DNA of 64,000 nucleotides from Gautieria morchelliformis. Taxonomy: Eukaryota > Basidiomycota > Agaricomycetes > Gomphales > Gomphaceae. Location: contig WHVA01000339.1 of the NCBI GenBank assembly GCA_015179125.1, forward strand, positions 62,001 to 126,000. Reading direction: 5' to 3'. Both the position numbers and the translations under genes were made by a program. Shown piece after piece: positions 20,722-62,639 of this stretch; the first letter of the stretch is position 1; each line of letters starts with the position of its first letter. The notes under the pieces were generated by a model that did no database searches, was not told the origin of the DNA, and saw only the letters and a program-made list of their open reading frames with translations.

Positions 20722-20757
20722 CCCTCCCCCTCTATAGATAACTATAGGGGTTGACTA

Positions 20758-24272: not shown

Positions 24273-24313
24273 GGTGTCCCTATGGTACGCATCTCGTAGG
24301 ACCTTAGACAGGT

Positions 24314-25695: not shown

Positions 25696-25727
25696 CCTCG
25701 AGGGTCTCGGCCATAAGGAGGGGATAC

Positions 25728-26283: not shown

Positions 26284-26288
26284 GCTGG

Positions 26289-36486: not shown

Positions 36487-36491
36487 GGTCC

Positions 36492-38083: not shown

Positions 38084-38088
38084 GGTCC

Positions 38089-38905
38089 ACAGTGGTTTCG
38101 ACACTTGTTATCAGTCCCTCCAGAACTGATGACAACTGCCTTTCTTCCTGCTGGTCTGTGGTTTCCTGGGTGCCACCGCCGGATTCCCTGCCGTGGCTAG
38201 CTTCCCTCTGGGTGGCAGAATGAGCACAAACGGGCACGCCTGCCGTCCGTCAGCAATATTCACTATTTATCAGCTGCGGGTAGTACTCACCACAGGCCAG
38301 ATGGTGTGTCTACCCTGTGTCGGTGTTCGAGGCCATGAGGTACAGGTTGGCCATGGACATCATCAGTCAGCATGGCCGGGTACCAACCTGTTGTGGTGCA
38401 TGCTGGTGGCCAGCACTGTGCACCGGCGATTACCACCGTTTAGCACCACATGGCGCTAACCCCTGTGAACCGTGTATAACTCGTATATGATACGGTTTGG
38501 CACCGTATGATACTGTATTTGTACGGCCGTGTACGGTATGTACGGCGATATACGGCATGCTTTCGATGCCACTCTATTATCCATCCGCCCATACGCTCTC
38601 CCCAAGTTCTCGTATTTCCCTAATCCAGACATATATACACCTCCCCTATGCTCTCCCACTTTCTATTTCTGTTTCTGTTGTGTATACCCCCCTTCTGCGT
38701 CGCTATGTTCTCGCATGCCGCAGTGCTCTGAACGGCTATATTGTGGTACAATGCTGTTTCTCGCTTTTTTTCTCTCTCCTCCCTCTCTCTCTGTTCTGGA
38801 TGCTCCGGGTGGTGTACATGTAGATAAGAGAATGCAATCAGGTTTAGAAATGCGTGGGTTGGTACTATAGGCGTGTTGTAGAGAGACGAACATTGTGTAG
38901 TTCGG
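38089..38905. other. no gene recognised; TACGG-rich stretch
   Basis: Contains a cluster of TACGG/CCGTA words between about 38465 and 38560 and a pyrimidine-rich zone near 38765-38795. It ends with TTCGG just before element D. Confidence 0.35.
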
Positions 38906-39917
38906 TGTTAAGACCCGTTCCCGAGTCCGGACCCAAGGCCTCCGCCTCGGTTCTTGCTCGGGAACCTTCGGGCTTAACTCAGGTTCCCTATCGGTTCATC
39001 ATTCACCCTGATCCCCATTCCTAGATAGTCCTGTTCCATTTCTGATGATCGTCCGTTGACCCTGCTTTCTGCTTGAGACGGGCATTGATGTCCTCTTTCC
39101 GTTCCTTGCAAAGTAGTATATAAACCCCCGTCATGTACACTAATTCCTCAGTTCTGATATCAACTTAGATTCCTCGTATCTTCCGCTCCTCTGTCTGATC
39201 CTCATTCCGAACCTCGGCTTCCAGCCGAACCCATCTCCAATTCCGTTTCCAAAATTAGGGCGGAACATTGTAGTGGGCGCAACCTACGAAGTTGAAGCCA
39301 AGCCCTCTGTTCCGAACCTCGGTTATCCTCGGCTCGGCCCTCGGGTTGAGTCTTAAGTATGACTTACGTTCTTAACAGTATATCAGAACTCTCCACACAC
39401 AGTTGTTCAATATGCCTATCACTAGATCTTACACCCGTGCCCGCGGTAGCCGCGTCACCCCAACCATAGAGGCCCGCCGCGCACGAAGTGCTTCACACTA
39501 CCCCGAAAACCCCCCATTCCGTCACCACTACAACAACCCCCCTCTGCCTTTGGACTCGTCTAGACGCCAAGTTATAGGTATCGGTCACGGACACATCAGC
39601 GAGGTTCCCGAGGATCCCCATGGTGAGTCCCCCGACCCTAGCGACCCCGGACACGGTGGTCATGGCGGCAATAACGACTCCAGTTCCGAGCACAATCCCA
39701 ATCCTGATGCAGAGGCCCTGAGACCGAACTCCAACCTGAATGCAGAGGCAGACGGTGAGGAACAGGTTGGGTGCCGTATGCTCGCGGCTTTGGAAAAGCT
39801 CGCCGACAATGGACTCGGTGGAGGAGACTGCGCCAACTCAAAGGCGAAACTTCGGGGGCCCAACCAATTCGACAGCTCGGACCCGAAAAAACTCCGAGCT
39901 TTCCTTCTCCAGTGCAC
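38906..39917 (+). mobile_element. Ty3/gypsy element D, 5' part only (fossil)
   Basis: 5' LTR 38906-39377 (TGTTAAGACCC ... CTTAACA), a self-complementary site after it (ATATCAGAACT at 39380-39390 pairs with AGTTCTGATAT at 39150-39160), then the gag start (MPITRSYTRARGSRVTPTIE at about 39411; LRGPNQFDSSDPKKLRAFLL at the end). Cut at 39917 by the E2 element. No 3' LTR in the window. Broken. Confidence 0.72.
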
Positions 39918-41187
39918 TGTCAAGATTGGTTTTCAGGCGTTAATATCGTGTATTAGTGAACACAGCGAATGCCCGAATAACTTGTGCGAATAAGTATGCC
40001 GTTCGGCGAATAGATGAACCAATGAATGTTCACAAGGTAAGAGGGTTTGCCTAAATGGGGCTCACCCTATCTACAGTCGTAGCGAAGTAGCCCGTGACTC
40101 TTGACGATGTAACGTGCAAGGTCTCACGGAAGGGCTGTCTAAGTCTCGACAATCCCTTCGCTGGCGAAGGTGCTCCTTCAGAGCCTTTCGCCAACAGCAC
40201 AGAAAATGGTTCGAAGGCTAAGGTAACAAAGATGAAGTACGAGAACTCACCAGTGATGCCTAAGTCCTCTGCTAGTCGAAGATGGAAATCTCCAAGAGAA
40301 GGCTTAAGACGATGACCACGGCGAGGTCAAAGCTGCACAAGATGAACGACGTATGATAATTGAACTGGGGAATATACATGCAAATGTAAACTACTTATAT
40401 CGAATGCTCGTAAGGTATCAGCGAATAGGAAAGAGGCCGTCACAAGTCAGGGTTGGATAGGGGTGTGCAGTCATGATACAGTATAGATGAAATAAACATA
40501 CAATAGAATGTGAGAAGAGGGAGAACATGAAACGACGGAGAGTAAAGGTGGCGAAGGCACTTATGGACAAAGCCATGTCTTGGGACCCACATACATGCTA
40601 CCCTGCACAGACTCTTGGTCTACTGGGTTGATTCTGCACGACCTATGGAAGAGATGCCCTGCGAACACACTTTGACCATACGAATGCCCAATGGGGTTGG
40701 ATTAAGAAGACGATGGGGTTAATGATGAACCATCATGCCGGGTGAATGGTATCAATTGTATTTGATGGTGTGCCTGCTGGCGAATGATGCGAGCAGCGAA
40801 TAGCCGTTTGGCGAAATGCAAGGAAGGGCGAACAGAGGTGACATAGGGGAGGAGAGGTCGAGGTGGAGGGCGAAGCCGAGCGAATACTGAGGAGGAGTAG
40901 CAAAAGGGAAAATGGGGATACCAAGGTGCAGGAAATACACAGGTCATGACAATCCAACTATCAGAACACCATCGGGAGAGGGTCGAGCAGAGGAGGTGGT
41001 AGACCCAGTGATGACTTGTCAAGTCAGTCCAAAGCCGTCGGTCGTGCGTTTAACGGCGTGGCGATGGTAAGGGTAATCAGCGAACATCGGTTGCCGAACA
41101 TGACAATGGCGATCGGAACAAACATGGAAATGGGGTGAGAAATGGCAGGACAGAGCATCTGAGTATGAGGAATAAATGCGTCATGAC
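39918..41187 (-). repeat. LTR of E2, composite 5' end
   Basis: Full family E LTR, about 1270 bp, with two successive TGTCATGAC starts on the minus strand (41187 and 40951). The TGTCATGA module is thus tandemly repeated inside the LTR, as in E3 and E4. Confidence 0.6.
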
Positions 41188-41370
41188 AGCACCCCCTTCC
41201 TAGCTTCGGAGTCCAATGACGTAGTGCTCTAGGACGGGGGACGAGCTTGAGGACATAATAGTGCCCCCGATACGATCTCTCGCCGCCTGGTCTGTGCATG
41301 GCTCAGCCCTGTGCTTTAAAAGGCGTTGGGATGTGAGGCGACGGGTCCATTCCACCACTTGATTCCTCAT

Positions 41371-42783
41371 GGCTGATAACGAATCGCCTTCTTTCTCCGT
41401 GCTTATTGAGCGAACGCGGGTAAAGCTGAAGGTTCGCCCTGACTTTCGGGGGGACTTGCACGAAGAGGTTGAGGAATGGGTTGCCGAGGCTGAAGAACTT
41501 CAGGTAAGAGAGCTCTCAGATCAAGTCTTTTGCTGAACGCCCGATCGTAGGCCGAGCTGCAGACCATGTTGTGTGTCGAAGCGATTGTGGATCCCGACTT
41601 CGAACGTCCGTCGGATGTGAACGACCTGGTGAAGGAGGTGAAGGAAGCGAAGGAGTGGCTTGGGGGTGCGGGCTTCCTGCTTAGCCCAGAGTTCCTTGAT
41701 GCCAGGATGAATGCGGTGCAAGGGATGACAGCTTCGCGGGGCCCGTCGAAGGAAGCCGAGGTAGTGGGGGATGCTGCGAAGGAGCTTGAAAGTACGTGAC
41801 ACGTATCCGTCCGCTAGCCAGGATAATTCGGAGCTCTGTCAAAGATCCTGCTCCTGTTGTTGAGCCCATCACTGCACCACCGGAATCACTCCGACCCTTG
41901 ACTGTAGGTCCGTCAATGGGCACAAAACATCGACCGATGTTTCTTTCGTCCGAGGACGAAGGCGACGATGCTCTGACACCAAAGAAGCCTCGCAAGGAAC
42001 GCGCTCGGAGCCCTATGCCCTAGATCGTCGCAGTTGAGCCAACTCCTGCCCATCGTCGCAAGGGTCGGGCAACTGCGCTGGTTGCCGAAGCGGACAAGGT
42101 CCCACAATCGGTGGCGAAACATGGCTACCCCGAGCATGCATATTTGCTCGGGTGGCTGATTTATCAAGGGGTAAGCAGCATGGTTCTTTGTTGAAGTACT
42201 TCGCCCGCTGACTGCGTGCTTCCCCGTAGCACAATGTATTGAAGAGGCCTGCGAAGTGTGCGCGATGTCTTCGCTATGGTCACACCTGCAGCGGCGAGGC
42301 AGGAAAGATGTGTGGACGCTGCATTCGCGATCGCCAGGGTTGTGTCGTGGCAGAAGGTAAGTTTCCATCGCCGTTATTTCTCCTACACCGTTCGAGCTCA
42401 TGTGGAGTCCTTGTACCTCCTCTAGAGTACGTGGCAAAGGATGAGAAGGATAGTCGAGAGCCAGAGGTGAAGGAGCGGGGATCAAAGGGAAAGAGTAAGG
42501 GGAAGGCGAAGGATAAGGGATCGACGACGGGTTCATCCTCGATTTCGTCGAAGGGTGTCCTTGGTAAGTTTGTTACGCCCTTCCTTCGAGCATCCCTGGC
42601 TGATTCCCAGATACCTCCGAAGGTACCCGAACATCTACGCTGGCCGGCGAGGAGAGGATGGAGGAACTGGTGGAGAGGTCGGAGGATCTGATGAGGAGTG
42701 TGTCCAGAAAGTTGAACGATTTAAGCGGAGAGGTGTTGGAACTAGAGGGGGTCCAGGCGATGATCAGGAAGCTAACGAAATAG
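41371..42783 (+). other. antisense accessory gene region of E2, cysteine-cluster protein (fossil)
   Basis: Runs opposite to the element, starting 184 bp from its 3' LTR (MADNESPSFSVLIERTRVKL). Blocks in order: an acidic helical part (DLHEEVEEWVAEAEELQ), a stretch with LSSEDEGDDALTPKKPRK, the cysteine cluster CARCLRYGHTC ... CGRCIRDRQGC, a Lys/Gly-rich linker (SKGKSKGKAKDKG) and a C-terminal coiled coil (MEELVERSEDLMRSVSRKLN). The blocks are separated by short intervals with GT...AG ends like the host's introns. The element C counterpart has the same position, orientation and architecture. Function unknown. Confidence 0.55.
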
Positions 42784-43074
42784 GGTAGAGTCTGTGATAA
42801 TTCTTTTTGTGAATATAGAAGCATTGTTTCTCTTGAAGCACTAGATGGTGTGCTAAGTCTTGGGTCTCTTCGGGGACTTCGTGTGGGAGTATGTGAACGT
42901 GGCTATAAGCGAATCCAACTGGAGGTGGTGTTTGGGAAGTTTGTGCCAAGTGATCACCAAGTTTTCCGAATGTAGGGGTTGTGAGGGTTTGTATAGTGCC
43001 TAAGCACTCACCCCCCCCTTTATGGTACACGTCGCCCCGACGGGTAAAATTGACTGGGGTGGTTGGGGACTAGT

Positions 43075-43460
43075 AAATAGTTTGCCATCCATGGCGAATG
43101 TCTGCGCGAAAACAGGAAGATTCGGGATAGGAAGGGGCAAAGAAAGGAAGAGACACCTGGTGGAAGGACTGAGGTGGGATAGGATAGTCCAATTGCCATG
43201 TTTGGGGCGTAACCCAAGAATAGCGGGGACGAGTATAAAGCAGTGATATGGAGGACTCGGTAGAGTGATGCTCGATAGGCTTTCGCTGAGGTAGCGAATA
43301 GTTTGCCGTCCATGTCGAACGTCTGTGTGAAAACAGGAAGATTCGGGATAGGAAAGGGTGAAGAAGGAAACAACACCTGGTGGAAGGGCCAAGGTGTAAT
43401 AGAGTATTCCATTCGCCGTGTTCGGGGCGTAACCCAAGAATAGCGGGGACGAGTCCTTGG
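43075..43460. repeat. direct repeat of about 165 bp in E2
   Basis: Two units (about 43075-43240 and 43298-43460) share TAGTTTGCC-TCCATG, AAAACAGGAAGATTCGGGAT and GGGGCGTAACCCAAGAATAG. Not coding as far as I can see. Confidence 0.65.
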
Positions 43461-44806
43461 AATGTATGTTGAAGGTAACTAAAGAGTGTTATGTGGTGGA
43501 AATATCTATCGAAGTGGAGTTTACTGAATGAGACGAAGATCTATGTGTTCGGCGAACGAGATGAGTAGTGGCTAGTGTGCTAACAAGGAGAAGGAGACAT
43601 TGTTCGAGAATTGGGGCCGTGAATTTTGAGAACTAGGATGAGAGGGGGAGAAATCGGAGACTGAGAAGATGTACATGGATGGGGAGAGATGAAGGGGACA
43701 GGATATTTGAAGCGAATGGGTACAGGGATTAGTACAGAGTGGGTAACGTTGTTGTTCGAAGGAGTAAAACGATCCATTCTTAACACCACAGAGGGATCGC
43801 GAGCTTAATCTTCCGCGGGAAAGCTTTTGCTATCTTCGGAAACCTCTTCGAGAATCGCAACCTGAGGGTTGCCTTCGAGAGTGAAGATAGCTCTGCCAGC
43901 GGTTGAGGCAGACTCTTGAAAGCGGTGTCATGATTCATTTATTCTGCGAATCATCCCTCAGCACAAGGCGAATGACTTCCCGAACCAGCGAACGACTTCC
44001 TGAACCAGCGAATATCTTGCCAAAATATTCATCGCCATACTGCTTTCGCATTCACTATTCGCATCATCCCTGCCAGCACACCAGGTGTTGGAGCCCTCAT
44101 CCATCATAGAACCCATCATCTGTTAAACTCCCACTCCATGACAGACCCACATGCTCAGGATGCATTCGGATAGTGTCAGTTGCAGCCTCCATGCAGGTTG
44201 GACTCAATGGGACTCGTACCACTGGACGAATTAGCTGCGCTGAAGTTTTCACTACACAGTTGTCATGACACATTCATTTCTTGTATCAAGCTATCCCTGT
44301 TTTCCCTTTCACCACTCTTCCATGTTCGCTCAGCTTCGCTCCATTCACTCCTTGCTCGATTCACTATTCGCCACATTCGCCAGTAGCCATGTCATCAAAC
44401 ACGATCGACATCCTTTACCTGGATTGATGGTTCATCACTGATCCTATCATGAAGTGCAAGGAGGTGCAGGCTGTCATGACTCATTTATTTCTTGTACCCA
44501 GCTATCCCTGTTGTCCCTTTCACCACTCTTCCATGTTCGCGTGTCTTCGCTCTATTCACTCCTCGCTCCATTCGCTATTCGCCACATTCGCCATATGACC
44601 ATTCGCTACTCGCATCATTCGCCAGCAGGCACGCCATCAAACACAATCGACATCCTTTACCCAGGTTGATGGTTCATCACTGGTCCCATCATCTTCTCAA
44701 CTCAACCCCCTTTGGGTGTTCCTATGTCCAGAATGCATTCACGGGGCATCCTACCCATTGGTCATGTGGGACCAGCCCAGCAGATGAAGAGTCCGTGCAG
44801 GGTGGT

Positions 44807-45467
44807 TGTTACGACCGTTCATTTCCGACTTCCGACCTTCAGTTCTGCAACACTTTCCGCCCCTCCGATATTTCTGACATTCCGCCCATTGTTCTATTCC
44901 CTTATTCTTTCGACTCTATTACTCGGACCCACCGGACCTGTTTCATCGTTCATCAAAACCACATATCCGGTCACCCTTGTAATTCGTTGTCAGATATGTT
45001 TTCCCGACCCCTTGTTCTTTGCCATTGTTCTACCTTACCCTGAACCCCCCTTGTAGTCCCATTGTTCCCAATAGTTAGTTCCCACGCATTGTCTACTCGA
45101 CTTCCGCTTCCTCTGGAATTTGCTTAGTACCATATCATTACCTGTTGTCTCAGCTCTTTGTATAAAAGCCTGTCATGTATGTCTCTTATTCTGCAATCAG
45201 ATAATCACCTTCGATACTTGATTTCCTTCGCTCCATCTCCTGTTCTTAGCACAGTGAGTCTAGCAAGATCTCAGTCTCTCCGCCTTCCATCTTCCGCCTT
45301 CCGCCTCAGTTCCGACTCAAGTTCCGACCAAACCTCTGGTTCAGCACTTTCCGACTTCCTACTCAGTTCCGAAATACTTAAGACGATAGTTCATTGGGGG
45401 CGCAACCTACAAGTTGAAGCCGCTGTCCTTTCCAGTTCCGACTTAGTGGAAATCTCGATACGTAACA
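44807..45467 (+). repeat. 5' LTR of element C
   Basis: 661 bp, TGTTACGACCG ... ATACGTAACA. TATA-like TATAAAAGCC near 45161, RNA start region with AATCAGATAAT (45195-45205), complementary to ATTATCTGATT just after the LTR (45470-45480). Twelve TTCCG and no CGGAA by hand count. Confidence 0.87.
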
Positions 45468-45504
45468 GTATTATCTGATTCCCACCCGATAACTATCGCT
45501 ATGC

Positions 45505-47092
45505 TGTCATGATTCGTTTATTCTGCGAATCATCCCTCAGCACAAGGCGAATGACTTCCCGAACCAGCGAATGACTTCCTGAACCAGCGAATATCTTGCC
45601 AAAATATTCATCACCATACTGCTTTCGCATTCGCTATTCGCATCATTCCTGCCAGCACGCCAGGTGTTGGAGCCCTCATCCATCATAGAACCCATCATCT
45701 GTTAAACTCCCACTCCATGACAGACCCACATGCTCAGGATGCATTCAGATAGTGTCAGTTACAGCCTCCATGCAGGTTGGACTCAATGGGACTCGTACCA
45801 CTACAGCGCAGGACGAATTAGCTTCGCTGAAGTTTTCACTACACAGTTGTCATGACACATTCATTTCTTGTATCAAGCTATCCCTGTTTTCCCTTTCACC
45901 ACTTTTCCATGTTCGCTCAGCTTCGCTCCATTCAGCCCTTGCCCCATTCACTATTCGCCACATTCGCCAACTGGCCATTCACTACTTGCATCATTTGCCA
46001 GTAGCCATGCCACCGAACACGATCGACATCCTTTACCTGGATTGTTGGTTCATCACTGGTCCTATCATGAAGTGCAAGGAGGTGCAGGCTGTCATGACTC
46101 ATTTATTTCTTGTACCCAGCTATCTCTGTTGTCCCTTTCACCACTCTTCCATGTTCGCGTGTCTTCGCTCCATTCACTCCTCTCTCCATTCGCTATTCGC
46201 CACATTCGCCATATGACCATTCGCTACTCGCATCATTCGCCAGCAGGCACGCCATCAAACACAATCAACATCCTTTACCCGGGTTGATGGTTGATCACTG
46301 GTCCCATCATCTTCTCAACTCAACCCCCTTTGGGTGTTCCTATGTCCAGAATGCATTCGCAGGGCATCCTACCCATAGGTCATGTGGGACCAACCCAGCA
46401 GATGAAGAGTCCGTGCAGGGTGGTTTATGCAGGTCCCAAGGCATGTTTTCGTACATAGGGGCCTTCACCTTCTTTCCTCTCCGTCGTTTCATGTTCGCAC
46501 CCCTCTTCCATTCTATTGTATGTCTATTTCATATATTATGTATCCTGACTGCGCACCCCTATCCAATCCTGAATCCAGACGGCCTCTTTCCTATTCGCTA
46601 GCACCATATGAGCATTCGGTATAAGTAGTCTACATTCGCATGTATATTCTCCAGTTTAATTATCATACGTCCATCTTGTGCAAACTTGACCTTGCTGTGA
46701 CTATCATCTTGAGCCTTCTTCTGTAGATTTCTATCTTCGACCAGAAGAGGACTTAGGCCTCACTGGTGAGTTCTCATACTTCATCTTCATTACCTTAGCC
46801 TTCGAGTTATTTTCTGTGCTGTCCGAAAAGGGCTCTGAAGGAGCACCTTCGCCGGCGAAGGGATTGTCGCTACTTAACAACCCTTCCGTGACACCTTGCA
46901 CGTTACATCGTCAAGTGCCACGGGCTATTTCGCTACGACTGTAGATCAGGGCAAATTCCTTTCGAGTAACCCTCTTACCTTTTATCCCTTACCTCTTCGG
47001 TACTGTTCGCTGGGCGATTCACTAGATCGCACACGCTATTCGGGCATTTGCCACTAACATGCGATATTTACGCCCAAAATCCAATCTTGACA
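45505..47092 (+). mobile_element. solo LTR of family E (E3) with perfect TSD (fossil)
   Basis: Inserted between element C's 5' LTR and its gag start; flanked by a perfect TATGC duplication (45500-45504 and 47093-47097). Ends TGTCATGATTC and CCAATCTTGACA. It has three successive TGTCATGA modules (45505, about 45849, about 46091), as in E4, so the composite LTR spreads as one unit. It is the youngest layer here. Confidence 0.78.
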
Positions 47093-47093
47093 T

Positions 47094-48499
47094 ATGCCTC
47101 CTCGTACCACAGCTACTTCAGCTCGAGCAGGAGCTGTCGAAGCTCTCTCTTATTTTGGCAGTCTTAGATCCGCAGCACCAAGGCACGCGGAACCCTCCGG
47201 CAGCTCTTGTGCCAACGATGAGCTCTCCGATGCTATTCCACAACGATTCGAAGAAGTTCCCGACGACAATCCCGACTATGACGGAAATTCGACGAGTAGC
47301 AGCGGCGAACAAACAGCAGCGTCATTCCGACGCCCAGCTCCACCAACACCACCTCCACCAGGACCACCTCCAGGCGGCCCTCATGGCGGCCCACCTGGCG
47401 GTCCCCCAGGCGGTCCTCCACCTCCAATTCCACCTCAGATTCCCGCCAACCCAGTTCCGCCCGCGCCCGTTCCGGATCTTGCACAAGCCATCGCCATGCT
47501 AGCCGGACAACTTCAGCGCCCGGCCCAAGCACCACCACGCCCCAAGACAAAGGTCCGCGAACCAGATCAGTTCGACGGTTCCGACCCCAAGAAGCTCCAG
47601 CCATTTCTGGTCCAGCTTCAACTCAATTTCCGTGATCGTCCCGACGCCTTTCCCGACGACGAACGAAAGGTCAATTACGCCCTTTCCTATCTCCGAGGCA
47701 CGGCTCTCGACTACTTCGAACCCGCCCTCATGGACCCGTTCGCTCTCGTCAACTGGGCCGACGATTACCACAACTTCGTTTCCGAACTCCGCAGCAACTT
47801 TGGACCATTTGATATGGAAGCCGATGCGGAAAATGAACTCGATAAGCTTCGTATGAAAGACACTCATAAGATAGCTAAATATATCATCACGTTCCAGCAG
47901 CTCGCTCCTCGAGTCCAATGGGGAGAAGCCGCACTCCGACGCCAGTTTTACATGGGCTTGCCACCCGGATCAAGGATGAAATTGCCCACGTCGGAAAACC
48001 CGCCACCCTTACCGACCTTCGCAACCTTGCCCAATCCATTGATTCGCGCTACTGGGAAAGACATTCTGAGATCGCTCGCGAAACCTCCGCCCAGAGCAAG
48101 AACGACAAGTCTTCCGACAAGAAGTCTGACAAAGACAAGAAGAAGACTAATTCCGGAAACAACAACTCCGGAAATAACAACAACAACAACAGTTCCGGAT
48201 CTAACTCCGGCAACCGGAACAACAACAACACCCCTCGCAACAACCAGGCCTCTGGTTCCAACACCAATGCCCGGAAGAGCACTCCGGACCTTTCCGACAA
48301 ACTTGGGAAGGACGGAAAACTAACCCCTGTAGAACGCCAGCGTCGCATGGACAACAACCTTTGCCTTTTCTGCGGCAAAGGCGGTCACGTCGCTCGCGAC
48401 TGCACTCGCGCTTCCGCCTCTGCTGCTAAGGCCAAGGGCCGCGCAGCAAAGACGGAAGAGAAATCCGAAGCGGCTCCCGCTGCGGATTCAAAAAAATAG
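47094..48499 (+). pseudogene. gag region of element C (fossil)
   Basis: N-terminal Pro/Gly-rich part, capsid-type gag (REPDQFDGSDPKKLQPFLV, LNFRDRPDAF, ALDYFEPALMDPF, LRSNFGPFDMEADAENELDK), Asn/Lys-rich linker and a CCHC knuckle CLFCGKGGHVARDC. Confidence 0.8.
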
Positions 48500-48540
48500 T
48501 CAGCAGTCCTCCGGCCTCCGCACGAGCTGAGGGCTGTGTT

Positions 48541-51500
48541 GACCCCATTCATGCGACAAATGAGGTTAAACTCAACACATCCACTCTTTCGTCCTCCGAC
48601 TCCCTTTCCGTTCCGCTCACTTCCGACACCATTTCCGCACCCCCGTTCACAGCACTGGTCGACTCCGGTTCGACTCATTGTTTCCTCGATTCTGACTTTG
48701 TTTTGAAACATAAACTTCCGACCCGCAACATTCTGACTATTCCGCTCCGCCTTTTCGACGGATCTTCCAACACGGCAATTTCTCAAGTCGTGGATCTGTC
48801 TATCCGTTTCACTACTGGGGACAACCATGAATTTACGTTTTACGTTACTCCGCTAGATGCTAGCTGTTCCATTGTACTAGGACACAATTGGCTCACCCGA
48901 TATAATCCGTCGATTAACTGGGCATTGGGTCAAATACAGTTCCGTACCCCGGATAACTTCCGTCTATTCCAACGTCGTCTGCAAAGATGGCTCAGGCCTC
49001 TTCTGCAACTCCGCTTGTGGATTCAGTTCCGCTCTCCGGTCCCGCTTTAGCACCTCCGCCCCTCGAAGCTCCTCGAATTGTGCTCGTCTCCGCCACCGCT
49101 TTCCGCGTATTGCAACGGCAAGAAGATACGACCGTTTTCCAGCTTCACCTTTCCGATTCGGCTTCAGTCAAGGCTCGTTCCGCCTCGACTTCCGCTCCGG
49201 TCGACATGAGCTCAGTTCCAGAAGAATATCGTGACTTCCCGGACGTGTTCAATAAAGCCAAAGCCGACAAACCTGCTGAACATTGACCTTACGATCTGAA
49301 GATAGATTTGGAAGAAGGAGCATCTCCGCCCCTTGGACCGACCTACTCCCTTTCACAAAGTGAACTCCAAACTCTCCGCGAGTTCGTCGATGAACATCTC
49401 AACATGGGCTTTATCCGCCCTTCGCTGTCTCCACATGGCGCTCTGGTCCTTTTCGTCAAGAAGAAGGATGGATCTCTCCGCCTCTGCGTCGATTTCCGCA
49501 GACTCAATGCCCTCACTAAAAAGGACAAATATCCGCTTCTGCGCATTTCCGACCTACTCGACACTCCCCGCAGGGCGAAGATCTACACCAAAATCGACCT
49601 CCGGCACGCTTATCACCTTGTCCGCATCCGGGAAGGTGACGAGTGGAAAACCACTTTCTGCACCCGCTACGGTGCTTTTGAGTGGGTTGTCATGCCTTTT
49701 GGTCTAACCAATGCTCCCGCCGCTTTTCAGCAATTCATGAACGACGTATTTTCCGACCTTCTCGACATATGCATCCTAGTCTACATTGACGACATCCTCA
49801 TCTATTCTGACACGCCGGAAAAACATCGGGAACATGTCCGCGAAGTACTCCGCCGTCTCCGCAAACACCACCTCTACGCAAAAGCAGAGAAATGCGAATG
49901 GCATCACGACACGGTCGAATACCTCGGCTACATCCTCTCTCCAACAGGTCTTACCATGGCAGAGGACAAGGTCAAGGCAATTCAAGAATGGCCGGAACCC
50001 CGACGTGTTAAGGATGTGCAGTCTTTCCTTGGCTTAGCCAATTTTTACCGACGTTTCATTTATAACTTTTCCGACATTACTGTTCCGCTCACGCATCTCA
50101 CCAGGAAGGGTGCTCCATGGAATTTCACTCCGGAATGCCGTTCCGCATTTGAAGCCCTCAAATCGGCCTTCACTACGGCTCCTATACTCGGTTTCTGGAT
50201 TCCTGATGCCCAACTTGTACTCGAAACCGACGCTTCCGACTACGCACTAGCCGCCATTCTTTCCATCATCTCCCCCGACGACGGAGAAATTAATCCGATC
50301 GCCTTTTCATTCCCGCACCTTTTCCGCCCCGGAACTCAACTACGATGTCCACGATAAGGAACTACTTGCGATTTTCGAAGCCTTCAAAATCTGGAGACAC
50401 TACCTCGAAGGTCCAACCTATCTGATCGACGTTGTAACGGATCATAAGAACCTTGAGTATTTCGCAACTACTAAGATTTTGACTCACCGTCAAGTCCGCT
50501 GGTCTGAATATCTCTCACAGTTCAACATGGTGATCCGCTTCCGCCCCGGAAAGCTTGGAGCAAAACCCGACGCACTCACTACACATTGCGACGTCTACCC
50601 AAAAGAGGGAAGTAGCGACTATGCCAGCATTAATCCGCACAACTTCCGCCCGGTATTCTCTACTGAGCAACTGGCATCGTCCCTGCGTGCCACAGCATTG
50701 CAGTTTCCGCTACTCCGCGCCTCAATCATTATGGACACCGAGTCTCTCCATTCCGACATCCGTTCCACACTCCGTTCCGACCCCATCTCCGTAGCCCACC
50801 TCAACGACCCCACCAGTCCTGGATGGTCACTCGATTCCGACGGATTTCTCCGGTACAAGTCCTGGATTTACATTCCGGATACCAACGATCTACGACTTCG
50901 CGTACTCCAGCAAAGCCACGATCATCCGCTCTCAGGACACCAAGGCCAGAACAAAACCCTCGACATAATCCGACGTACCTATACTTGGCCCCTCCTCCGC
51001 ACGATGGTCCAAGACTACTGCAAGTCATGCACCACCTGTATGCGAGCCAAGCCTCAACGTCACAAACCCTACGGCCTCCTGAAGCAACTTCCGATCCTGG
51101 AACAACCGTGGAATTCGATATCCATGGATTTCATTGAGAAACTTCCTAAGTCATCTGGCTACGATACCATTCTAGTAATCGTTGACCGCCTTACAAAGCA
51201 GTCCATCTTTATTCCAACATATGACACCATCACTTCCACCCAACTCGCACAACTCTTCGTGCTCCACATCTTTTCCAAGCACGGAATTCCTTCCCATGTC
51301 ACTTCCGACCGTGGATCAGAATTCGTGTCCTCCTTTTTCCGCACGCTCGGCAAGGCTCTCGACATGAAGCTCCACTTCACTTCCGGTTATCACCCCGAAG
51401 GAGACAGACAAACGGAACGTACTAATCAGACCCTTGAGCAGTATCTCCGCGTCTATTGCAACTACCAACATAGCAATTGGTCCAGCCTTCTTCCACTCGC

Positions 51501-52203
51501 GGAATTTGCCTACAACAATGCGCCTTCCGCGACCACCAGAATTTCCCCCTTTTACGCCAACAAGGGCTACCACCCGAATCTCGCCATCCACCCTGAACGT
51601 GACCTCGCCTCTGCAAGAGCCCAAGATTTCGTTGTGGAACTTGACGACCTTCACCAGCACCTCCGAGAGAACATTTCCGCTGCACAAAAGAGATACCAAA
51701 CCTCCGCCAATCGGAAACAACTTCCGCAACCGGCATTCGAGATTGGCGACAAAGTCTTTGTCAAAGCTGAAAACTTCCGCACCACTCGCCCCTCGAAGAA
51801 GCTCTCTGATAAATACCTTGGACCTTACGAGATCATCGCTAAGGCTGGCAGCCGTTCTTTCACTCTCAGACTTCCTGACAATATGTGCGCAGTACATCTG
51901 GTATTCCATGTCTCCATGCTTGAGCCAGCAGTTCCGAACACAATTCCGAATCAAGAACAACCTCCGCCTCCGCCAGTCATCATCGACGGAGAACCGGAAT
52001 ATGAGATCTCGGAAATTCTCAACTCCAAGCTCGACAGACGATACCGCTGCCAACTCCAGTACCTAGTCAAGTGGGCAGGCTATGAAAACACCGACGAAGA
52101 GACCTCATGGATTTCCGCCACGGAACTAGACCACGCCTCTGACCTCGTCGCTGATTTCCACGAGTCATATCCTGATAAGCCTGGCCCCATTTCCGTGCCT
52201 TAG
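48541..52203 (+). pseudogene. pol region of element C: PR, RT, RNase H, IN, chromodomain (fossil)
   Basis: Protease with ALVDSGSTHCFLD-type active site near 48650. [53 protein letters not shown]. RNase H follows near 50210-50570. Integrase: HDHPLSGHQGQNKTLDIIRR, SCTTCMRAKPQRHKPYG, SMDFIEKLPKSSGYDTIL, VTSDRGSEFVSSFFRTL, GYHPEGDRQTERTNQTLEQY. The C-terminal YEISEILNSKLDR ... YLVKWAGYENTDEETSWISA is a chromodomain, placing it with the chromoviruses. Confidence 0.85.
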
Positions 52204-52333
52204 TCATTTCCGACCTCTTTTCCGACACACATTCCTTTCTTACAGTTCTCAAATCATTGTTAAAATCCGATTAAATTTCAGTTACGCTAATTTCCGACAC
52301 TTCAAGAAAAATATCACAAGTCACCCTGACACC

Positions 52334-53565
52334 CTACTCCTCCCTCATTGTCTCTGCCTCAACCTCTTCTTCTGCTTCCGGCTCTTTTTCCGCCTCTCCT
52401 ACCTCGACACTCACCAACTCCGTTTCCACCCTTTCCCTCGTTTCTGCCTCCCCGCTCGGACCCGCTTCCGCCCCAATTCCCTGCTCCTGCAGCCGCGCAT
52501 CCATTCGGTCCCGGACCAGATCATTCGGCCACCGCATTTCCCGCGTCAACTGCTGCAGGACTGTAGACATGACAGTCATCTGGTTCTGAATTGACAGAAC
52601 CTGATGCTGCTGAACCTCTGCCATGTCGATCATGATGTCCCAAATTTGGCGTTGCTGTTTCCGCATGGCCCTCAGCGACCCGGCAATATCGAGGAGGGGA
52701 TAAGACATGGTAAAACAGTTCAAAACCGCCTGTCCCAATTTTCCGGTCACCGGAAACGATTCCTCGGCCCTCCCTCCACTCGGTCCCGTTTCCGACTTCG
52801 GATTCGACTCCTCAATCTTCTGTTTCTTTCGCTCCAGCCTCAAAGCACACCCGTCCACGACGCAGCGTCTCTTCTTGTCACGGCACTGATCGCACGAAGT
52901 TTCCCGTGGGTTACTCGACCACGTGCAATCCAACCCCTTAGACTCGCATGGGTCGCAAGGAGCCTTTTCCTCCTCATCGTCATCCCGCGTTTTCCGCTTC
53001 TTAGTCGCAGGATTTTCCGGTCCTAGTTCACGCAGCTCCAACATCCAATTCAACTTGTCCTTTCGAGCCTTCTGGAATGCGTCCGCCCGACGTTTCTGTT
53101 CCGCCACAAGGTTCACCGGAGTAGCGATTTCCTTTTGCTTCCCTTTTCCTTCGGGAGACGGTGTACCTTCCGCCGAACTTTCCAAGTCTGACTCTGACTC
53201 GTCCTGAACATTATTCTGGAGGAACTTTTAGTTGATTCAAGAACTTTTTCCGCCGGACATTCCCGACTCACCTGTTCCTTTTCCACCTTCTCCACAGCAG
53301 CTTTCTCCACAGCAGCCTTGTCCACAGCAGCTTTCCGTGCCGTGTTCTGTCTCCGTTTCTCTTCATGGACGCACTCCTCCTCCTCGCGGCGCTCGCGATC
53401 TTTCCTCTCCTGTTCCTTCCGCTCTTTCTCCCGACGTTCCTTCTCTTTCCGCGCGGCTTCCTCAGCCTCGTGTTTTTCGGCCAGTTCCTTTTGCAAGAGC
53501 ATATCAGCAAAATGCTGTTTCATCTCGGCACTCGTCATCTTGGAGAAGTCGATTGGAGCACTCAT
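52334..53565 (-). other. antisense accessory gene region of element C, cysteine-cluster coiled-coil protein (fossil)
   Basis: Opposite strand to gag-pol, between the pol stop (52203) and the 3' LTR (53689), starting 124 bp from the LTR (MSAPIDFSKMTSAEMKQHFA). In order: a long Glu/Arg/Lys coiled coil (EEAARKEKERREKERKEQER), a Lys/Arg-rich part with a nuclear-signal-like PATKKRKTRDDD, the cluster CDPCESKGLDC ... SCDQCRDKKRRC, a predicted helix (RKQQRQIWDIMIDMAEVQQH) and an acidic tail. The spacing (C-x2-C-x6-C twice) loosely recalls Zn(II)2Cys6 clusters but is not that canonical domain. About one break or intron. Function unknown. Confidence 0.6.
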
Positions 53566-53688
53566 GTTGGATTGGACAGAAGACGCGTTTGTTCCTCAGC
53601 CTATTTTTTTTAGACTCCGACGCGTTGGTTCACAGGTCACGTGATCCGACCTGTGGTCTCGCGGGGCTTGACCTTAGAAGGGAGATAC

Positions 53689-54231
53689 TGTTACGACCGT
53701 TCATTTCCGACTTCCGACCTTCAGTTCCGCAACACTTTCCGCCCCTCCGATATTTCTGACATTCCACCCATTGTTCTATTCCCTTATTCTTTCGACTCTA
53801 TTACTCGGACCCACCGGACCTGTTTCATCGTTCATCAAAACCACATATCCGGTCACCCTTGTAATTCGTTGTCAGATATGTTTTCCCGACCCCTTGTTCT
53901 TTGCCATTGTTCTACCTTACCCTGAACCCCCCTTGTAGTCCCATTGTTCCCAATAGTTAGTTCCCACGCATTGTCTACTCGACTTCCACTTCCTCTGGAA
54001 TTTGCTTAGTACCATATCATTACCTGTTGTCTCAGCTCTTTGTATAAAAGCCTGTCATGTATGTCTCTTATTCTGCAATCAGATAATCACCTTCGATACT
54101 TGATTTCCTTCGCTCCATCTCCTGTTCTTAGCACAGCGAGTCTAGCAAGATCTCAGTCTCTCCGCCTTCCGTCTTCCGCCTTCCGCCTCAGTTCTGACTC
54201 AAGTTCTGACCAAACCTCTGGTTCAGCACTT
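53689..54231 (+). repeat. 3' LTR of element C, 3'-truncated
   Basis: Starts TGTTACGACCG after the purine tract AGAAGGGAGATAC. It matches the 5' LTR at about 98.7% over 543 bp, then joins E4 sequence near 54232. Confidence 0.85.
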
Positions 54232-54626
54232 GCGCTGTGACTATCTTCTTGAGCCTTCTCCTGTAGATTTCTATCTTCGACCAGAAGAGGACTTAGGCCT
54301 CACTGGTGAGTTCTCATACTTCATCTTCATTACCTTAGCCTTCGAGTTATTTTCTGTGCTGTCGGAGAAGGGCTCTGAAAGAGCACCTTCGCCAGCGAAG
54401 GGATTGTCGCTACTTAGACAACCCTTCCGTGACACCTTGCATGTTACATTGTCAAGTGCCACGGGCTATTTCGCTATGACTGTAGATCAGGGCGAATTCC
54501 TTTCGAGTAACCCTCTTACCTTTTATCCCTTACCTCTTCGGTACTGTTCGCTAGATCGCACACGCTATTCGGGCATTCGCCACTAACATGCGATATTTAC
54601 GCCCAAAATCCAATCTTGACAAGTGG

Positions 54627-56135: not shown

Positions 56136-58220
56136 GATATGGTGCTGTGATGAGAATGAGTTTAGCATACTCTTCCATGACTTCATAGGCAACATAGCAG
56201 CGCACCAACTTTGATCGTTCCATTACTGGCCATGGGATCCACGTCTTCCAGATGCGGTAGTTCCGTGGTCTATGGGGGCATCAATAGGTTCAGAAGATGT
56301 ATATGGCAAGACAGAGGCATAGAGCAGGATGAGAATAAAGAAGACGGCATGTCCAAGGGGAGCATGACAAATGCAGAGGACTAGCCAGCCATCCTGTAAG
56401 CCAATGGCACCACTGCCATGCTTCACCACGCATGTTCGTCATCGACAACAGAGCATATGTCAGAGCATATGTGGAAATGGCCAATGAAGAAGTAGGAGGA
56501 AGGAAAACAGTGGTGGAACGGAAAAGTCGCATGCTCACAGGCTTTTTCTTGGTCAGTCATCGTGGGCGGCCCAAGAAAACTGTCTTTGCCATTGTAGGGT
56601 GGATGTCCTGATGAACCGGGTGTAGGAGCACGAAGAGGTTGAGGGATGCGTCAAGGGTTATGGGACGAGGCGGCGAGAGCGAGGGGAGATGTGAGAGGCT
56701 GGGAGAAAAGATACTCTGGGGCGTAGACTATATAGCATTAGCTGCCGCCAGAATCCCGTGGCAGATTATGCAACTTGCTTATCGACGAATCAGAGGAGAG
56801 AGAAGCCATTGTCGCAAGCGCATTGTATGGGAGCGGATGTACGCCCCGAAGAGCGTGTGAGGAGTGGAGGAAAATGAAACACCGCAAAGTGTTCTTACCG
56901 TATTGGGATCAACGGAAGGGCCTGAAAACTCATGATGAGCTGTCAATATTTGCCTCGTTTCACAGAGTATTGTGGCATCGGTAGTAAAACAATTAGCCAT
57001 TGTTTTGCGAAGTACCGGCAACAGCCTAGGTCCCTGAGAGCCCACAAGTAACATGAACCTGCCGCAGCATACGCCGATACTGAATATTCTGAGCTCTCAC
57101 TAGACATATTCTCAAACTAGTTAGCAGCTCGAGCTTCCCCAGAATGCGAGACGGCGATTTGAGCATTTTGCGTCGATCGTCGGCGTCTCTAGTGCGCCCT
57201 CTCCCACACGGTTTGATTTATCCAAGCACAAGAAAGCATAGTGGTTTGGGGGCCACAATAGCACTTATTTCAGGGATTCGTTGGTGGAATTCCATGGCAT
57301 GTCGCGAGACAGTTCTATGCTGACTCCTGAGTCGCACCGTATCCTTGCAAATTCCTGCCCACGCCAGAGCCGTCATACTGAAAATCATTGACATAGATTA
57401 GCTATAGATGGGCGAGCTATTCCATGAAATATGAGTTGCCCTTGATACTCAGTGTACATTGTCGTTACCGCAGACGGTGTGACACGGAGTCACGGAGTCA
57501 CGCTCACATAGTTACCGTCACTAAAAAGTTTCACTATTTGACCAAAACATATACTGAGACCAAGCAGGAAAGTGTAAATGGGGCACAGATCAGAGTTTGT
57601 ATCGAAGCAGGTTCTAGCACACGTTTATAAACCGTGATTATGCAAATCTCACCTGGTCATTCATCATCGAATTCGGCGGATTCCTGCTGCACCCTTACAA
57701 TTTTTGACGTACATCAAGATCTAGCATAGGCGGCGCAACTTGTGTAAGGATGATGTGAGTGGTACGGGTCAATCGTACAGTTTATGCTCCACATACCGGC
57801 CGTACCCAGCGGTATGTGCGCTATATATACGGTCTGTGACCGTGGCTGATGTATATACCCCAGCGGCTTCACTTTCCTGATGTACTTAATTTGAAACATC
57901 GAACTGTACCCATGATCGATCAGTCAAACGTTCAGGATCGATTCCCACGCGAATAAATTTCTAATCACCTCTATGATCGTGGTTACACCCTCAGCCGTGC
58001 CTATTCCGAGTAGATAAATGGTACCGCAGAGCACCATGAACTCTCCACAGCTTGAGGACGGTGAAGGCACTTGGAACGATCCTGAAGTACAATAGGTGAG
58101 TCTTTTATCTAGCCAGGAATTATGCCCTTTGACGATGCTGAACAGGAGGGGGAGCTTGTCAAGCTACCGCTGGAGACAAATTTAGCAGCTCTGGGCGGGA
58201 AGAAAAGCCGAACCCAAAAG
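56136..58220 (-). pseudogene. fork-head-like gene segment, copy b (5' part and upstream flank)
   Basis: Shares with copies a and c the N-terminal coding part, here cut at 56136 by F4, and the upstream flank through about 58220 shared with copy c (to about 63930). The homologous start codon has changed (ATAG at the ATG site near 56731). The uninterrupted sequence at 56810-56840 gives the empty Helitron site. It is a pseudogene. A short plus-strand frame at the far end (58021) is listed separately. Confidence 0.5.
58021..58095 (+). other. short conserved frame MVPQ..., copy b
   Basis: ATGGTACCGCAG starts a 24-codon frame ending TAG; copy c (63746 onward) has a 22-codon frame with the same start, an in-frame 6-nt difference and the same TAG position. 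A conserved downstream stretch encodes ELVKLP in both. It may be a uORF or first exon of a plus-strand gene; not recognised. Confidence 0.35.
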
Positions 58221-58229
58221 CTGGGGCTG

Positions 58230-60475
58230 AGGAGACAGTAAGGGTGGGCCAGGCGGAGCCCCCACGCGGTGCGTTGTTCCGGTTCGGTAGCGTACTTACT
58301 ACGCTGCGTCGAGGTCCGATGCTGTGATTTATCATTCAGACTTAGATTCGTGCTGGTGCTGCACAGCACCGCGTATGTGCTACGAGATGGGATGATGCAC
58401 TGGGCGTGACTCGTGTAAGTGAGGGATGAGGGATTCGGCGAAAGGCATAACGGGACGGGGTGCTGGTGAGACGCTCAGTGGGCGTTGTGCGGAGGGGAAC
58501 TAGAACCTCTCGGAGCCCAACTGGCGACGATATCAGCGGCACGGAGTAGGTGAGGATATCAGGAATATGCCACGGACATACCGACTGGAGACCGAGATGC
58601 GAATGACTAAAAAGACTAACACGGATCATGGATGCGGCTGAGGCAATGATACGCTCAAGGATGCAAAATGGATAGCGCTCCGTTCGCGGCAGCAGGACTG
58701 CTTGTTGTCTGATCGTCGGCCTAGTTTATTGATGCTGATTCTGATTCCGATGGTTCACCTCACATGTCGCGTTGCAGTCGTGGAGGCCCTCACTGTGTCA
58801 AGGGAATGGCGGCGGGGGGTAAACGACGGCGACGAGGGCGAGCGATACGCGTTGCAATGGATTTCGGCGGAAAAGCGAACTATGCGCAAAGGACTTCAAA
58901 CTTGCTCGACGCGACGTTTCCACGCAGCAAACCAGCGAGAGATGATAACACATCACGCGGGTCAAGGTGTCCAACACTGATGAGGGTGCGCTGGACGTAA
59001 TTCCTCAGGGTAGGCCTTGTGAATCTGCTCGGTGCGTGTCCCGTCTGCGTGGCATGCATGCGCAGGCTGACGCTGACGCTGACACGGTGACTCCCCATAC
59101 CTAGAGTCCTGGACTCCTCCCGCTCTTTCTTAGAACACTTTATCCTCGCGACTTCATGACACTGCTTGAGGCGATGGATCGGATCTTGTCAACAGAGGTA
59201 GATATGGAATGCGATTTTCACGCGCGGACTCGGAGCCTTGGTACGGAAGATCCAATTGGAGATCGGTGCGATGTTGGACGTGGCGGGTGCCGCGAAGAAC
59301 GGAAGCTAGGAGACGCCTAGTGTCTTGATGTGGCAAGTGCGAGTGTCCAGGTGGGTTACTTTAGATTATGTGTTGTGTTCGGTATTGTGAGAGATGGGCG
59401 GCTGACACTCGCTTTGCTCCCTTGCTGCAGGCAATGCTATACGACATGGGTCCTGCGCTGCTCGTCGCACACTCGACCGTGCAGAAGGGTTGGGGTTGGA
59501 GTTCCCAACGATACAGAGGGGGTGGGGCAAATGGGAGCGTGGTGTCATACGTGCTCCAGAAAAGCACTACATCAGCGTGGATATGGGTTATTAGGGTTGA
59601 AAACGAGGTGAGGTATTCATGCCCATAACCGCACTCAGGCGAGTACATATCCTTGTTTTCCGAATTATTGTTGTCTGAGTGCTTTTTGCTTCTTCTGTGC
59701 ACCTGGAGAATCACGGCGACGGTGCTGCACAACGGTGACTATGTTGAGCCAAGGTAACATGGTGTACTTTTTGATTATGCTGCACTGATGCGTCATTTGT
59801 TATGGCTTTATCGACGAGTCCTGACATTTGAATTTTGATTCACGACGAGTGGGGGCGACTGTCCGGGAGAGGAGTAATTCTTGAAGAATCTGGACACGAG
59901 AGTGGCAAGAAGAGACGAGGGGGCATGTGGCATTGTCCAGTGCCCCCTATCTGCGCCTTGACGTTCAAACGGCAGCTGCGTCGTGCCGGGCGCCTCGCAG
60001 CATTGCTGACCTCTTGCTCATGGGCCCAGCGACAATGATCATGTTTGGGATGTTCGGCGCCTCAAATGACTAAGGACATTAGGACCCATGCAAGATAATC
60101 TTTCCTTTGGTGGAGGTGAAATACATTCTCCTACTGTACTGCATACGCAGGTTCTTTATACCCTTCGTCGTACACGATTATTTCGCCATTCGGCTGAAAA
60201 AGCTAACGATCCTCATCTACAGAATATATGACCGTGATTGGGAAGTCTTATCCTCGACTCATCGAACGACACTCATCGAACGACACTAAGTACTGATAAA
60301 CTTCACGCTGTCCTGTGTCTCGTGTTTATCATATGACTGCCAAGACAGTACAGCCACAAAACCGATCACGATAAACCCGGCCGGCCGAGATGAGAGACGG
60401 ACGGCGACTTTTCCGCCGGTGAAGTGGACAGACTAGTCTTTGAAGCCCATTCACAAGAGGAACCATACGTAAAAA
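58230..60475. other. GC-moderate host sequence, no recognised gene
   Basis: Several short open frames on both strands (for example plus 58702-58980 and 59330-59611), none with known domains. A decayed gene or lineage-specific genes are possible. Confidence 0.3.
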
Positions 60476-60830
60476 AAAACAAAGTGTACATTCTTTAATA
60501 CACAGTCAGGAGACGGAATGTAGTACAAACTCTTATACACATGCATTAGTTGAATTTGGCCATTGGAAATAGGAAACGGCTCGAAGGAAACGGCAGGAAT
60601 AGAGCGAAGACTACATCGAGAGCGTGAAGAAGCAGGGAGATAGGAACCGATTCCATTCGAATAGGGTACGATACATATTTTGCTCGGGAGAGTCGCAAGT
60701 CTGGCAGTGACCGATGGTGCTGCTCGGTATAAGAGCCCGCGAAGTACCCCACCGAAGGGGACTCCCCTGACTTCCCACGCACGGCTTGTCCTTGCATCCA
60801 TCCCTCACAGCAGATATTGACTGACCTCTC

Positions 60831-62623
60831 TCAACGGTTTGCCTTCTGATAGGCAAATCCTGTGAGAGGGCATAGTAATGTTTGTTTGGTGAGGGTAGCT
60901 GGTGCCGGGACCAGTACCCTCCCAATTTCAGGAGTCGATTCCGGGCTCTGCCATCCTGCGGCGGCGAGCTCGTCGTGGTCGATGCTCTGCCTTTGGCCTT
61001 CCAGCTGTTCAGGCATGGCATCGTTTAGCGTCGCGGCCACGGCCATGACTGTTGACTTACGATCGTGTCCTTCAGCATCGTCTCCGCTAGGTGATGGAGT
61101 TGATGCATCCGCCCATACATCCTCTGAGTCACGGTCGCCCGTATCGACTTGGTCTTCTTGGCTCTTCGGAACTTAGGCCTGGATTTGTAGTCGAACTTAC
61201 GACCGTCTCCTTCAGCATCATCTCCGCTAGGTGATGGCGTTGATGCACCAGCCCATACATCCTCTGAGTCACTGTGGGCCCGTATCGACCTCGTTTTCTT
61301 CGCTGTTTTGAATTTAGGCCTGGATTTGTAGTCGAACTTACACGACCTGCTACTAGGCACGACTGTCCACCACCAGTCCCCATCCTGTGCACAGAGGTTA
61401 GAATGCCACTAATTGCAAACACCACACGTGGAACACACGCCTGACAGGGGTTGTTATCCGTTGCATGCCGGGGGATCAAAGTCAGCCATGGATGGCCTTC
61501 CAACAAGTGCGTAGATGTTCCTGCACAAATCAACAAGTCAACATGAAAGAACTACGAGTTACGCCCGAAAACACGAAAACAATTATGCATCCCACAAAGC
61601 GATGTAGGATTCGCAAAGCGATCGAAGAGGACACAACTCACCCAGAATCCTTGGTCATGATGGGGATTGGCATAATACGCGAACCTTCTTTTAATAGCAA
61701 TCATGATCTCTATCTCCGTTAGCCGCTTGTGTGGTGAGCCAAGGATCGCGCAGATCACTGTGTCGATCAGGAAATGGAGAGGATGGCGATCTGCATGGTC
61801 TGATCCGCTTGACAGTATGTTCAGATCGAAGTCCGGCTTTGCTCTTAGAGGTTGGGCTTGTGGACACGATGAGTGACTAGCACGACACATTGTAGCTTGT
61901 TTACCGTTTCGTTCTTCCAGTTCATCAAACGCTCTCTGGTGGTGGCTGAGAGGGTAGTACGTACGATGGGACTGGATCTGAGGGTTCGCCATAGAAGATT
62001 TCGCTTGCACACAGTAGTTCGGGTTGATGAACCAGCGACCATCGTGATGGACGAGATCTGGCGGATACGGTGCTGTGATGACGCTGTGTTGAGCACATTC
62101 TTCCATGACTGCATAGGCAAAATGGCATCGCACCAACTCGGACAGTTTGACTGGGGGAGAATTCGCGTCTTCGAGACGCGGTAGTGCCGTGATCTATGGG
62201 GATCAATAGGTTGAGAACACGTATATGACAAGACCGTGCACAGAGTATGACGAGAGTAGAAGAAGAAGGGATGTCGAAGGAAACCATTATAAACACGATG
62301 GACTAGTTAGCCTTCCTGTAGGCCAATGGCGTCACTGCCGTCTTTCGCCACGCGTGTCCATCATCGCCAACAGTTATATAGGAAAACGGCCAGTGAAGAA
62401 ATAGAGGGAAGGAAAACAATGGTTGAACGGAAAATTTGTAGCTCACAGCATTTGCCTGACGGGGTGGGCGGTCCTGCGAAGGTGGGCTGGCCATTGTAAC
62501 CTGATGATCGTGGGGTAGGAGCGCGAGCGATGGGAGTGATGTGTCCAGGGTTATTGGATGAGACGTCGGGAGCAAGGGGAGATACCAGAGGCTGGAGAAA
62601 AGGTACTCTGGGGCGTAGAACAT
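60831..62623 (-). CDS. fork-head-like domain gene, copy c (most complete)
   Basis: Start MFYAPEYLFSSLWYLP at 62623. Middle exon LVRCHFAYAVMEECAQHSVI, PPDLVHHDGRWFINPNYC; fork-head-like helices LHFLIDTVICAILGSPHKRL, TEIEIMIAIKRRFAYY; then an HLRTCWKAIHG exon and a DGDWWWTVVP end resembling the wing of fork-head domains. A basic C-terminal part follows with KFDYKSRPKFKTAKKTRSIR, duplicated (units 61057-61196 and 61197-61337), and an end YQKANR at 60831. A 1-nt length difference between the two units shifts frame unless one is spliced out, so the gene may be damaged or alternatively spliced. Likely a nuclear DNA-binding protein; moderate confidence. Confidence 0.5.
61057..61337. repeat. 140-bp tandem duplication in copy c
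   Basis: Two adjacent units (140 and 141 bp) from TTACGA-CGT-TCCTTCAGCATC to GGATTTGTAGTCGAAC, about 85-90% identical, each with a 3' splice-like end; looks like an exon duplication. Confidence 0.75.
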
Positions 62624-62639
62624 ATAGGGTCAGCTGCCG

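Follow-up and report, generated by a model that had tools for sequence, protein, structure and literature searches.

Structure of element C

We analysed a 64,000-nucleotide stretch of the genome of the basidiomycete Gautieria morchelliformis (contig WHVA01000339.1, positions 62,001 to 126,000; hereafter the window), in which positions 44807-54231 of the plus strand are occupied by a Ty3/gypsy chromovirus that we call element C. Its 5' long terminal repeat (LTR; 44807-45467, 661 bp, TGTTACG...CGTAACA) gave 47 scored matches in the genome (122 Mb, 1113 contigs), of which 39 are further copies of full or nearly full length. Its 3' LTR (53689-54231), truncated to 543 bp, is 98.7% identical to the 5' LTR over those 543 bp. 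The gag-pol region (47094-52203, plus strand) encodes gag, a protease region, reverse transcriptase (RT), RNase H, integrase, SH3 and a chromodomain, in frames that are broken in places. Pfam matches were obtained for RVT_1, RT_RNaseH, Integrase_H2C2, rve, SH3_Tf2-1 and Chromo, and the chromovirus assignment rests on RT, RNase H, integrase and chromodomain lying in this order between the LTRs. Between pol and the 3' LTR, antisense to gag-pol, there is a conserved coding sequence, the antisense gene discussed below. A preliminary description had taken the whole of 44807-54231 as saturated with the pentamer TTCCG. The interval is not a single element, as 1.6 kb of it (45505-47092, plus strand) belongs to a different family, X, in the form of a solo LTR (TGTCATG...TTGACA) nested between the 5' LTR and gag and flanked by the 5-bp target-site duplication TATGC (45500-45504 and 47093-47097). 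C itself is hosted by an older X-type LTR on the plus strand, which its insertion split into a left part (43926-44806) and a right part (54234-54621). The segment bounds used in the computations differ from the coordinates quoted here by one to a few bases.

A dispersed word in element C

The interval 44807-54231 contains 88 TTCCG and 23 copies of its reverse complement CGGAA. Without the X insert the counts are 87 and 23, where the dinucleotide composition predicts 15.9 and 8.1. Each segment was compared with 1000 dinucleotide-preserving shuffles, none of which reached the observed number of TTCCG in the 5' LTR (12 versus 1.42 expected), gag (11 versus 2.28), pol (40 versus 6.68), the antisense region (17 versus 4.25) or the 3' LTR (7 versus 1.04). 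The nested X LTR holds a single TTCCG (1.82 expected). Counting both orientations, the density of the word is 14.0 per kb within C versus 1.66 per kb in the remaining window. The hand counts of the preliminary description, namely 12 TTCCG and no CGGAA in the 5' LTR, eight TTCCG in a sample of pol and about 14 against about 1 in the antisense gene, agree with our recounts, which place the eight at 48606-48958 and give 14 and 1 over 52334-53595; its expectation of an excess beyond dinucleotide composition in LTRs, gag, pol and antisense region also held.

Dinucleotide composition as the cause is rejected by these shuffles, and codon usage, which the same description had argued could not explain the excess, is rejected by shuffles that keep both protein and codon usage. 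With the four gag-pol frames pooled, TTCCG then ranked first of 1024 pentamers (40 versus 12.7). It occupies all three codon frames overall, although the five occurrences in the short second gag frame fall in the same one. In the main open reading frame (ORF) of the antisense gene, the coding-strand word CGGAA was in excess in all seven copies tested (10-19 versus 4.8-8.4, with 0-23 of 1000 codon-preserving shuffles reaching the observed count), and in the exon 1 frame its number was not significantly raised (5 versus 3.2; 140 of 1000 shuffles).

The related copies in the genome behave alike. TTCCG was the top pentamer at all 30 loci examined (L009-L038, of which L009 is the window's own copy), with 38-69 occurrences per locus of 3.3-3.9 kb, and also at four subfamily loci (L070-L073), one of which (L071) contains only the 3' part of an element. 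The flank following the word prefers A or C and then C, giving the extended form TTCCG-A/C-C. A distant relative of C at L074 (positions 1-2052) had two, one and one TTCCG in three pieces of 1.84 kb, for which the expectation is about 1.3; no other word stood out clearly there.

The bias had been described as strand-specific, and this stood only in part. Over the 30 loci TTCCG reached 1646 against 261 expected (6.3-fold) and CGGAA 332 against 100 (3.3-fold). The reverse complement was in excess in gag (10 versus 2.55; 0 of 1000 dinucleotide shuffles) and in pol (12 versus 4.41; 3 of 1000), and under codon-preserving shuffles it ranked third of 1024 in gag-pol (17 versus 4.9), while against dinucleotide shuffles neither the LTRs nor the antisense region had a CGGAA excess. 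In total, gag-pol has 51 TTCCG and 22 CGGAA. C is C-rich on the plus strand throughout, with a GC skew of -0.36 in the LTR, -0.25 in gag-pol and -0.28 in the antisense region, and part of the asymmetry is due to this composition; the remainder is some orientation preference.

The predicted antisense zinc-cluster gene

The antisense gene (53565-52334, minus strand) has its ATG at 53565 and is predicted to encode 391 amino acids in two exons (53565-53272 and 53215-52334), separated by a predicted intron of 56 nucleotides (53216-53271, GTGAGT...CAG). As the genomic RNA is the opposite strand, such an intron could survive retrotransposition. The protein contains the motif C-x2-C-x6-C-x10-C-x2-C-x6-C (52862-52957, minus strand), whose six cysteines are invariant across 11 relatives and have the spacing of the fungal Zn2Cys6 cluster (PF00172). 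In support of this resemblance, the C protein and nine of the 11 relatives also match Pfam Zn_clus, though below its threshold. AlphaFold predicted a long helix at residues 162-254, confidently at about 181-250. Of the first 30 hits in the genome, 27 lack a stop in this ORF, and no relatives of the antisense protein or of pol were found in IMG/VR.

Compared with the four subfamily copies, the antisense gene of C showed a ratio of nonsynonymous to synonymous divergence (dN/dS) of 0.11-0.16 at a synonymous divergence (dS) of 1.25-1.81, which indicates that it is under purifying selection. In three of these pairs the dS of gag-pol was 0.10-0.25, and this roughly tenfold contrast would imply separate histories of the two parts, the simplest account being that lineages have probably swapped the antisense module. 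The antisense proteins of the subfamily loci are 63-70% identical to that of C; in nucleotide sequence the antisense region (52204-53687) is 66-74% identical, gag-pol 88-95% and the LTR 89-93%. Both versions have a nearly unchanged zinc-cluster sequence, and both kinds of element retain TTCCG.

Evolution and spacing of the word

On the deep branch between the subfamilies, words in both orientations changed in 7 of 44 cases, versus 160 of 475 for other CG pentamers (P = 0.017), and six TTCCG were gained where 1.7 were expected (P = 0.008). On the young stem none of 37 words was lost, against 27 of 342 (P = 0.09), and in the 3' piece the young clade has 47-55 TTCCG in each of its 15 copies, versus 35 in the window copy. 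These comparisons argue moderately for selection on the word while the elements were active. We base nothing on a substitution simulation in which new gains appeared to maintain the words, as decay from a richer ancestor looks identical; the polarised branch counts are used instead.

Outside the LTRs (47094-53688), five direct TTCCG pairs were spaced 12 bp apart where 0.6 were expected (P = 0.0004, uncorrected for about 36 spacings), which is compatible with a dimer. The same stretch also has a few TTCCG-N3-CGGAA pairs, three of them at offset 8.

Words in families X and A

The nested X LTR carries a different word, TTCGC (22 versus 2.15), with its reverse complement GCGAA also raised (5 versus 0.46; none of 1000 dinucleotide shuffles reached either count); this LTR has internal repeats, so that some of the 22 copies depend on one another. 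Under the same shuffles C showed no excess of TTCGC. A second X copy, at L074, has 12 TTCGC versus 1.7 in its shorter LTR and 44 versus 9.3 over the whole 8.8-kb locus. At 42230-42691 of the window, plus strand, lies an X-type antisense ORF of 153 amino acids (CARCLRYGHTCSGEAGKMCGRCIRDRQGC). Its product is zinc-cluster-like, with a six-cysteine motif that differs from that of C, and has no detectable similarity to the C antisense protein. Between two X copies its dN/dS was 0.41 on 44 changes, a ratio that weakly supports a function. In L074:2424-8801 the X LTRs lie about 4.8 kb apart, and X has an ORF of 337 amino acids with no Pfam match and an antisense zinc-cluster ORF. No reverse-transcriptase motif was seen in the L074 ORFs, and X looks non-autonomous.

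A third family, A, is represented on the plus strand by an LTR, gag and part of pol (17026-20490) and a 3' LTR (25728-26284). Its word, ACCTCG, was found 15 times versus 1.5 expected (z score 10.9; highest shuffle 6.2). When codons were shuffled, CCTCG came second of 1024 pentamers (17 versus 6.3, z score 4.9) behind AACAA, and control ORFs reached a z score of 4.4, which weakens the case for CCTCG. The data are thus suggestive, not certain, of a weaker word in family A.

A binding site and its possible reader

We propose that TTCCG/CGGAA, at about 14 per kb in both orientations, would be a double-stranded DNA site for the antisense zinc-cluster protein of C, which perhaps binds as a dimer held by its long C-terminal helix. 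Sites this dense would let the protein cover C copies over their whole length, LTRs included, and thereby act on C chromatin to counter silencing, to activate transcription or both, in the manner of VANC proteins on VANDAL transposons. The parts of this proposal differ in strength. That the word is a site at the DNA level seems very probable, and we lean, if only slightly, towards the antisense protein as its reader. Anti-silencing as the main effect is a more tentative suggestion. By analogy, a VANC-type effect on chromatin would be the most natural consequence, with transcription alone or the handling of complementary DNA (cDNA) as open alternatives. Taken whole, as a site for the element's own antisense protein acting in a VANC-like manner on C copies, we regard the proposal as evenly balanced.

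Several results weigh against it. The Pfam Zn_clus scores of the antisense protein (15.8 bits) and of its L072 relative (19.1 bits) lie below the curated cut-off of 21, and the matches in nine of 11 relatives, taken at E values up to 1, are likewise sub-threshold. The zinc region fell below a predicted local distance difference test score of 60 in both AlphaFold models and is not reliably predicted, and no solved structure matched the antisense protein, no fold search having been made with the poorly modelled zinc region. Terminal branches show mainly losses of words and at most one gain in any comparison, as would be expected of dead copies, and this speaks against ongoing gain. For TTCCG alone, 7 of 35 were lost on the deep branch (P = 0.13), and the sister stem lost 2 of 30 (1.5 expected) and gained none. 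The coding frames of family X show its word weakly, TTCGC ranking 12th in the gag-like ORF under codon shuffles; these also gave no TTCGC excess in the antisense ORF, and the internal stretch 41000-43900 had no over-represented hexamer against 60 shuffles.

Among the other explanations, C might recruit a host zinc-cluster activator along its entire length. Words of the TTCCG type resemble CGG half-sites and the genome has 56 Pfam Zn_clus matches, both of which would suit such a factor, but each family would need a separate one, C itself has a conserved antisense zinc-cluster gene, and coverage of the whole body exceeds what a promoter needs, which disfavours a mere promoter element. We consider a host factor unlikely. 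Slightly less probable is a word without function, made common by local mutation, composition or slippage. Some LTR words do sit in short tandem repeats (45279-45328 and 54156-54189), one strand of C is C-rich throughout, and words decay on terminal branches. In every part of C, however, TTCCG outnumbers what either type of shuffle, dinucleotide- or codon-preserving, would give, and C and X have different words in one genome, so that a host-wide mutation bias is unlikely.

The preliminary description had left the choice between a binding site for a protein and an RNA packaging signal. A dispersed protein site is the better supported of the two. If the signal acted in RNA, the UUCCG copies of the genomic transcript would be bound by Gag or another RNA-binding protein and serve packaging, stability or export, and the preference for the sense strand beyond composition and the lack of CGGAA in the LTRs would both fit. 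That CGGAA exceeds both the dinucleotide and the codon-preserving shuffles in gag-pol, and that GCGAA is likewise raised in X, speaks for double-stranded DNA instead and makes the RNA signal improbable. A site-reader pair serving nuclear entry, condensation or integration targeting of cDNA would agree with a word that spans the whole element, hence the whole cDNA, and with C and X being nested in each other, but the nesting observed joins families with different words, and we think such a role quite improbable.

Returning to the DNA site read by the element's own antisense protein, it is tempting, though doubtful, to generalize it into an address code, in which each fungal LTR family would spread its own short CpG-containing word over its entire length, genes included, and would encode an antisense zinc-cluster reader specific to that word, switching on its own copies only, with word and reader diverging as families split (TTCCG in C, TTCGC in X, ACCTCG in A). 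One may conjecture that the CpG present in all three words would let binding and CpG methylation compete.

Comparison with known systems

VANDAL21 of Arabidopsis is a DNA transposon that encodes its own anti-silencing protein, VANC21, and carries a dense family-specific motif in the same orientation, with different motifs in related families; the motif, YAGTATTAY, has nine bases and lies mainly in non-coding regions and tandem repeats, and the protein has DUF1985/DUF287 domains (PMC5735166, PMC10398659). C resembles this system in encoding a protein of its own, in its dense, family-specific short motif and in the different motifs of related families, and differs in being an LTR retroelement, in having the word inside all its genes too and in its antisense zinc-cluster protein. 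DUF1985 and DUF287 were absent from the best 25 Pfam families listed, at E values up to 1, for the antisense protein and ten relatives. Retand-type LTR retrotransposons of plants have antisense TRP28 genes between pol and the 3' LTR, with predicted DNA binding (PMC11963269, PMC7264820). The gene of C shares the antisense orientation, this position and the prediction of DNA binding; unlike C, the Retand-type elements belong to plants, have the TRP28 domain and tandem repeats, and the accessible text of these sources mentions no dispersed cognate word (PMC11963269, PMC7264820).

In fungi the six-cysteine spacing of the C protein is that of the Zn(II)2Cys6 regulators (PF00172), and the word contains CGG; unlike these regulators, the protein falls below the Pfam cut-off and is encoded by a retroelement. 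Typical Zn(II)2Cys6 proteins have basic residues in the first half of the cysteine motif, whereas the C protein has them in the second half. Boty-like elements of Botrytis with an antisense gene, brtn, were reportedly described by Zhao et al. in 2011. Like them, C is a fungal LTR retrotransposon with an extra antisense gene; the part of the source at hand records brtn and reports no dispersed word (PMC8365987). In our literature searches, none of the listed titles and abstract openings described an antisense gene of the zinc-cluster type in a fungal LTR element together with a word cognate to it.

Should the proposal hold, the choice among synonymous codons in all genes of a retroelement would have been shaped by selection for a DNA-binding word, a regulatory constraint within coding sequence of unusual strength. 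Sequence-specific self-recognition, known from DNA transposons of plants, would then extend to retroelements of fungi, and antisense genes of LTR elements that are otherwise unexplained would have a function. Changes in zinc-cluster specificity could be studied in the natural pairs of word and reader that these families offer.

Other repeats in the window

A hexamer scan covered 23 stretches, each compared with 60 shuffles of its own. In thirteen the top hexamer lay above the shuffles. Seven of these are from C, X (LTR and L074) and A, and the rest are L070, L075 and the four stretches described below. No such excess was seen in the remaining ten, among them a minus-strand Ty3-type element, 56136-63378, 41000-43900 and five loci of zinc-cluster genes that we regard as belonging to the host. 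L075, which is 54% X-like, has CTTCAC 11 times versus 1.3 expected, and this may be deaminated CTTCGC. Weak positives at 7697-11293, 12000-17000 and 31300-36000 exceeded their shuffles by 0.4-1.4 z units. TGAGTC reached a z score of 12.3 in 36000-39900 and was rejected as a dispersed word, as 14 of its 16 occurrences fall in an array of TGAGTCA-like units (37183-37623).

The Ty3-type element just mentioned is a second pol on the minus strand (20500-25700), lying between the RT and the 3' LTR of family A, and it has no over-represented hexamer. For the RT of family A (19721-20470), 32 of 150 scored genome matches share a bit score of 501.2 at 96% identity, and several of the matches sit in frames of 1249 amino acids; the family is abundant and probably young. 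CTACC, found beside a zinc-cluster ORF at L058 and L069, was set aside because the ORF translates into a repetitive array. At L058:1495-2415 a classical-looking zinc-cluster motif starts the ORF that enters this array, and CTACC occurs there 53 times versus 4.0 expected.

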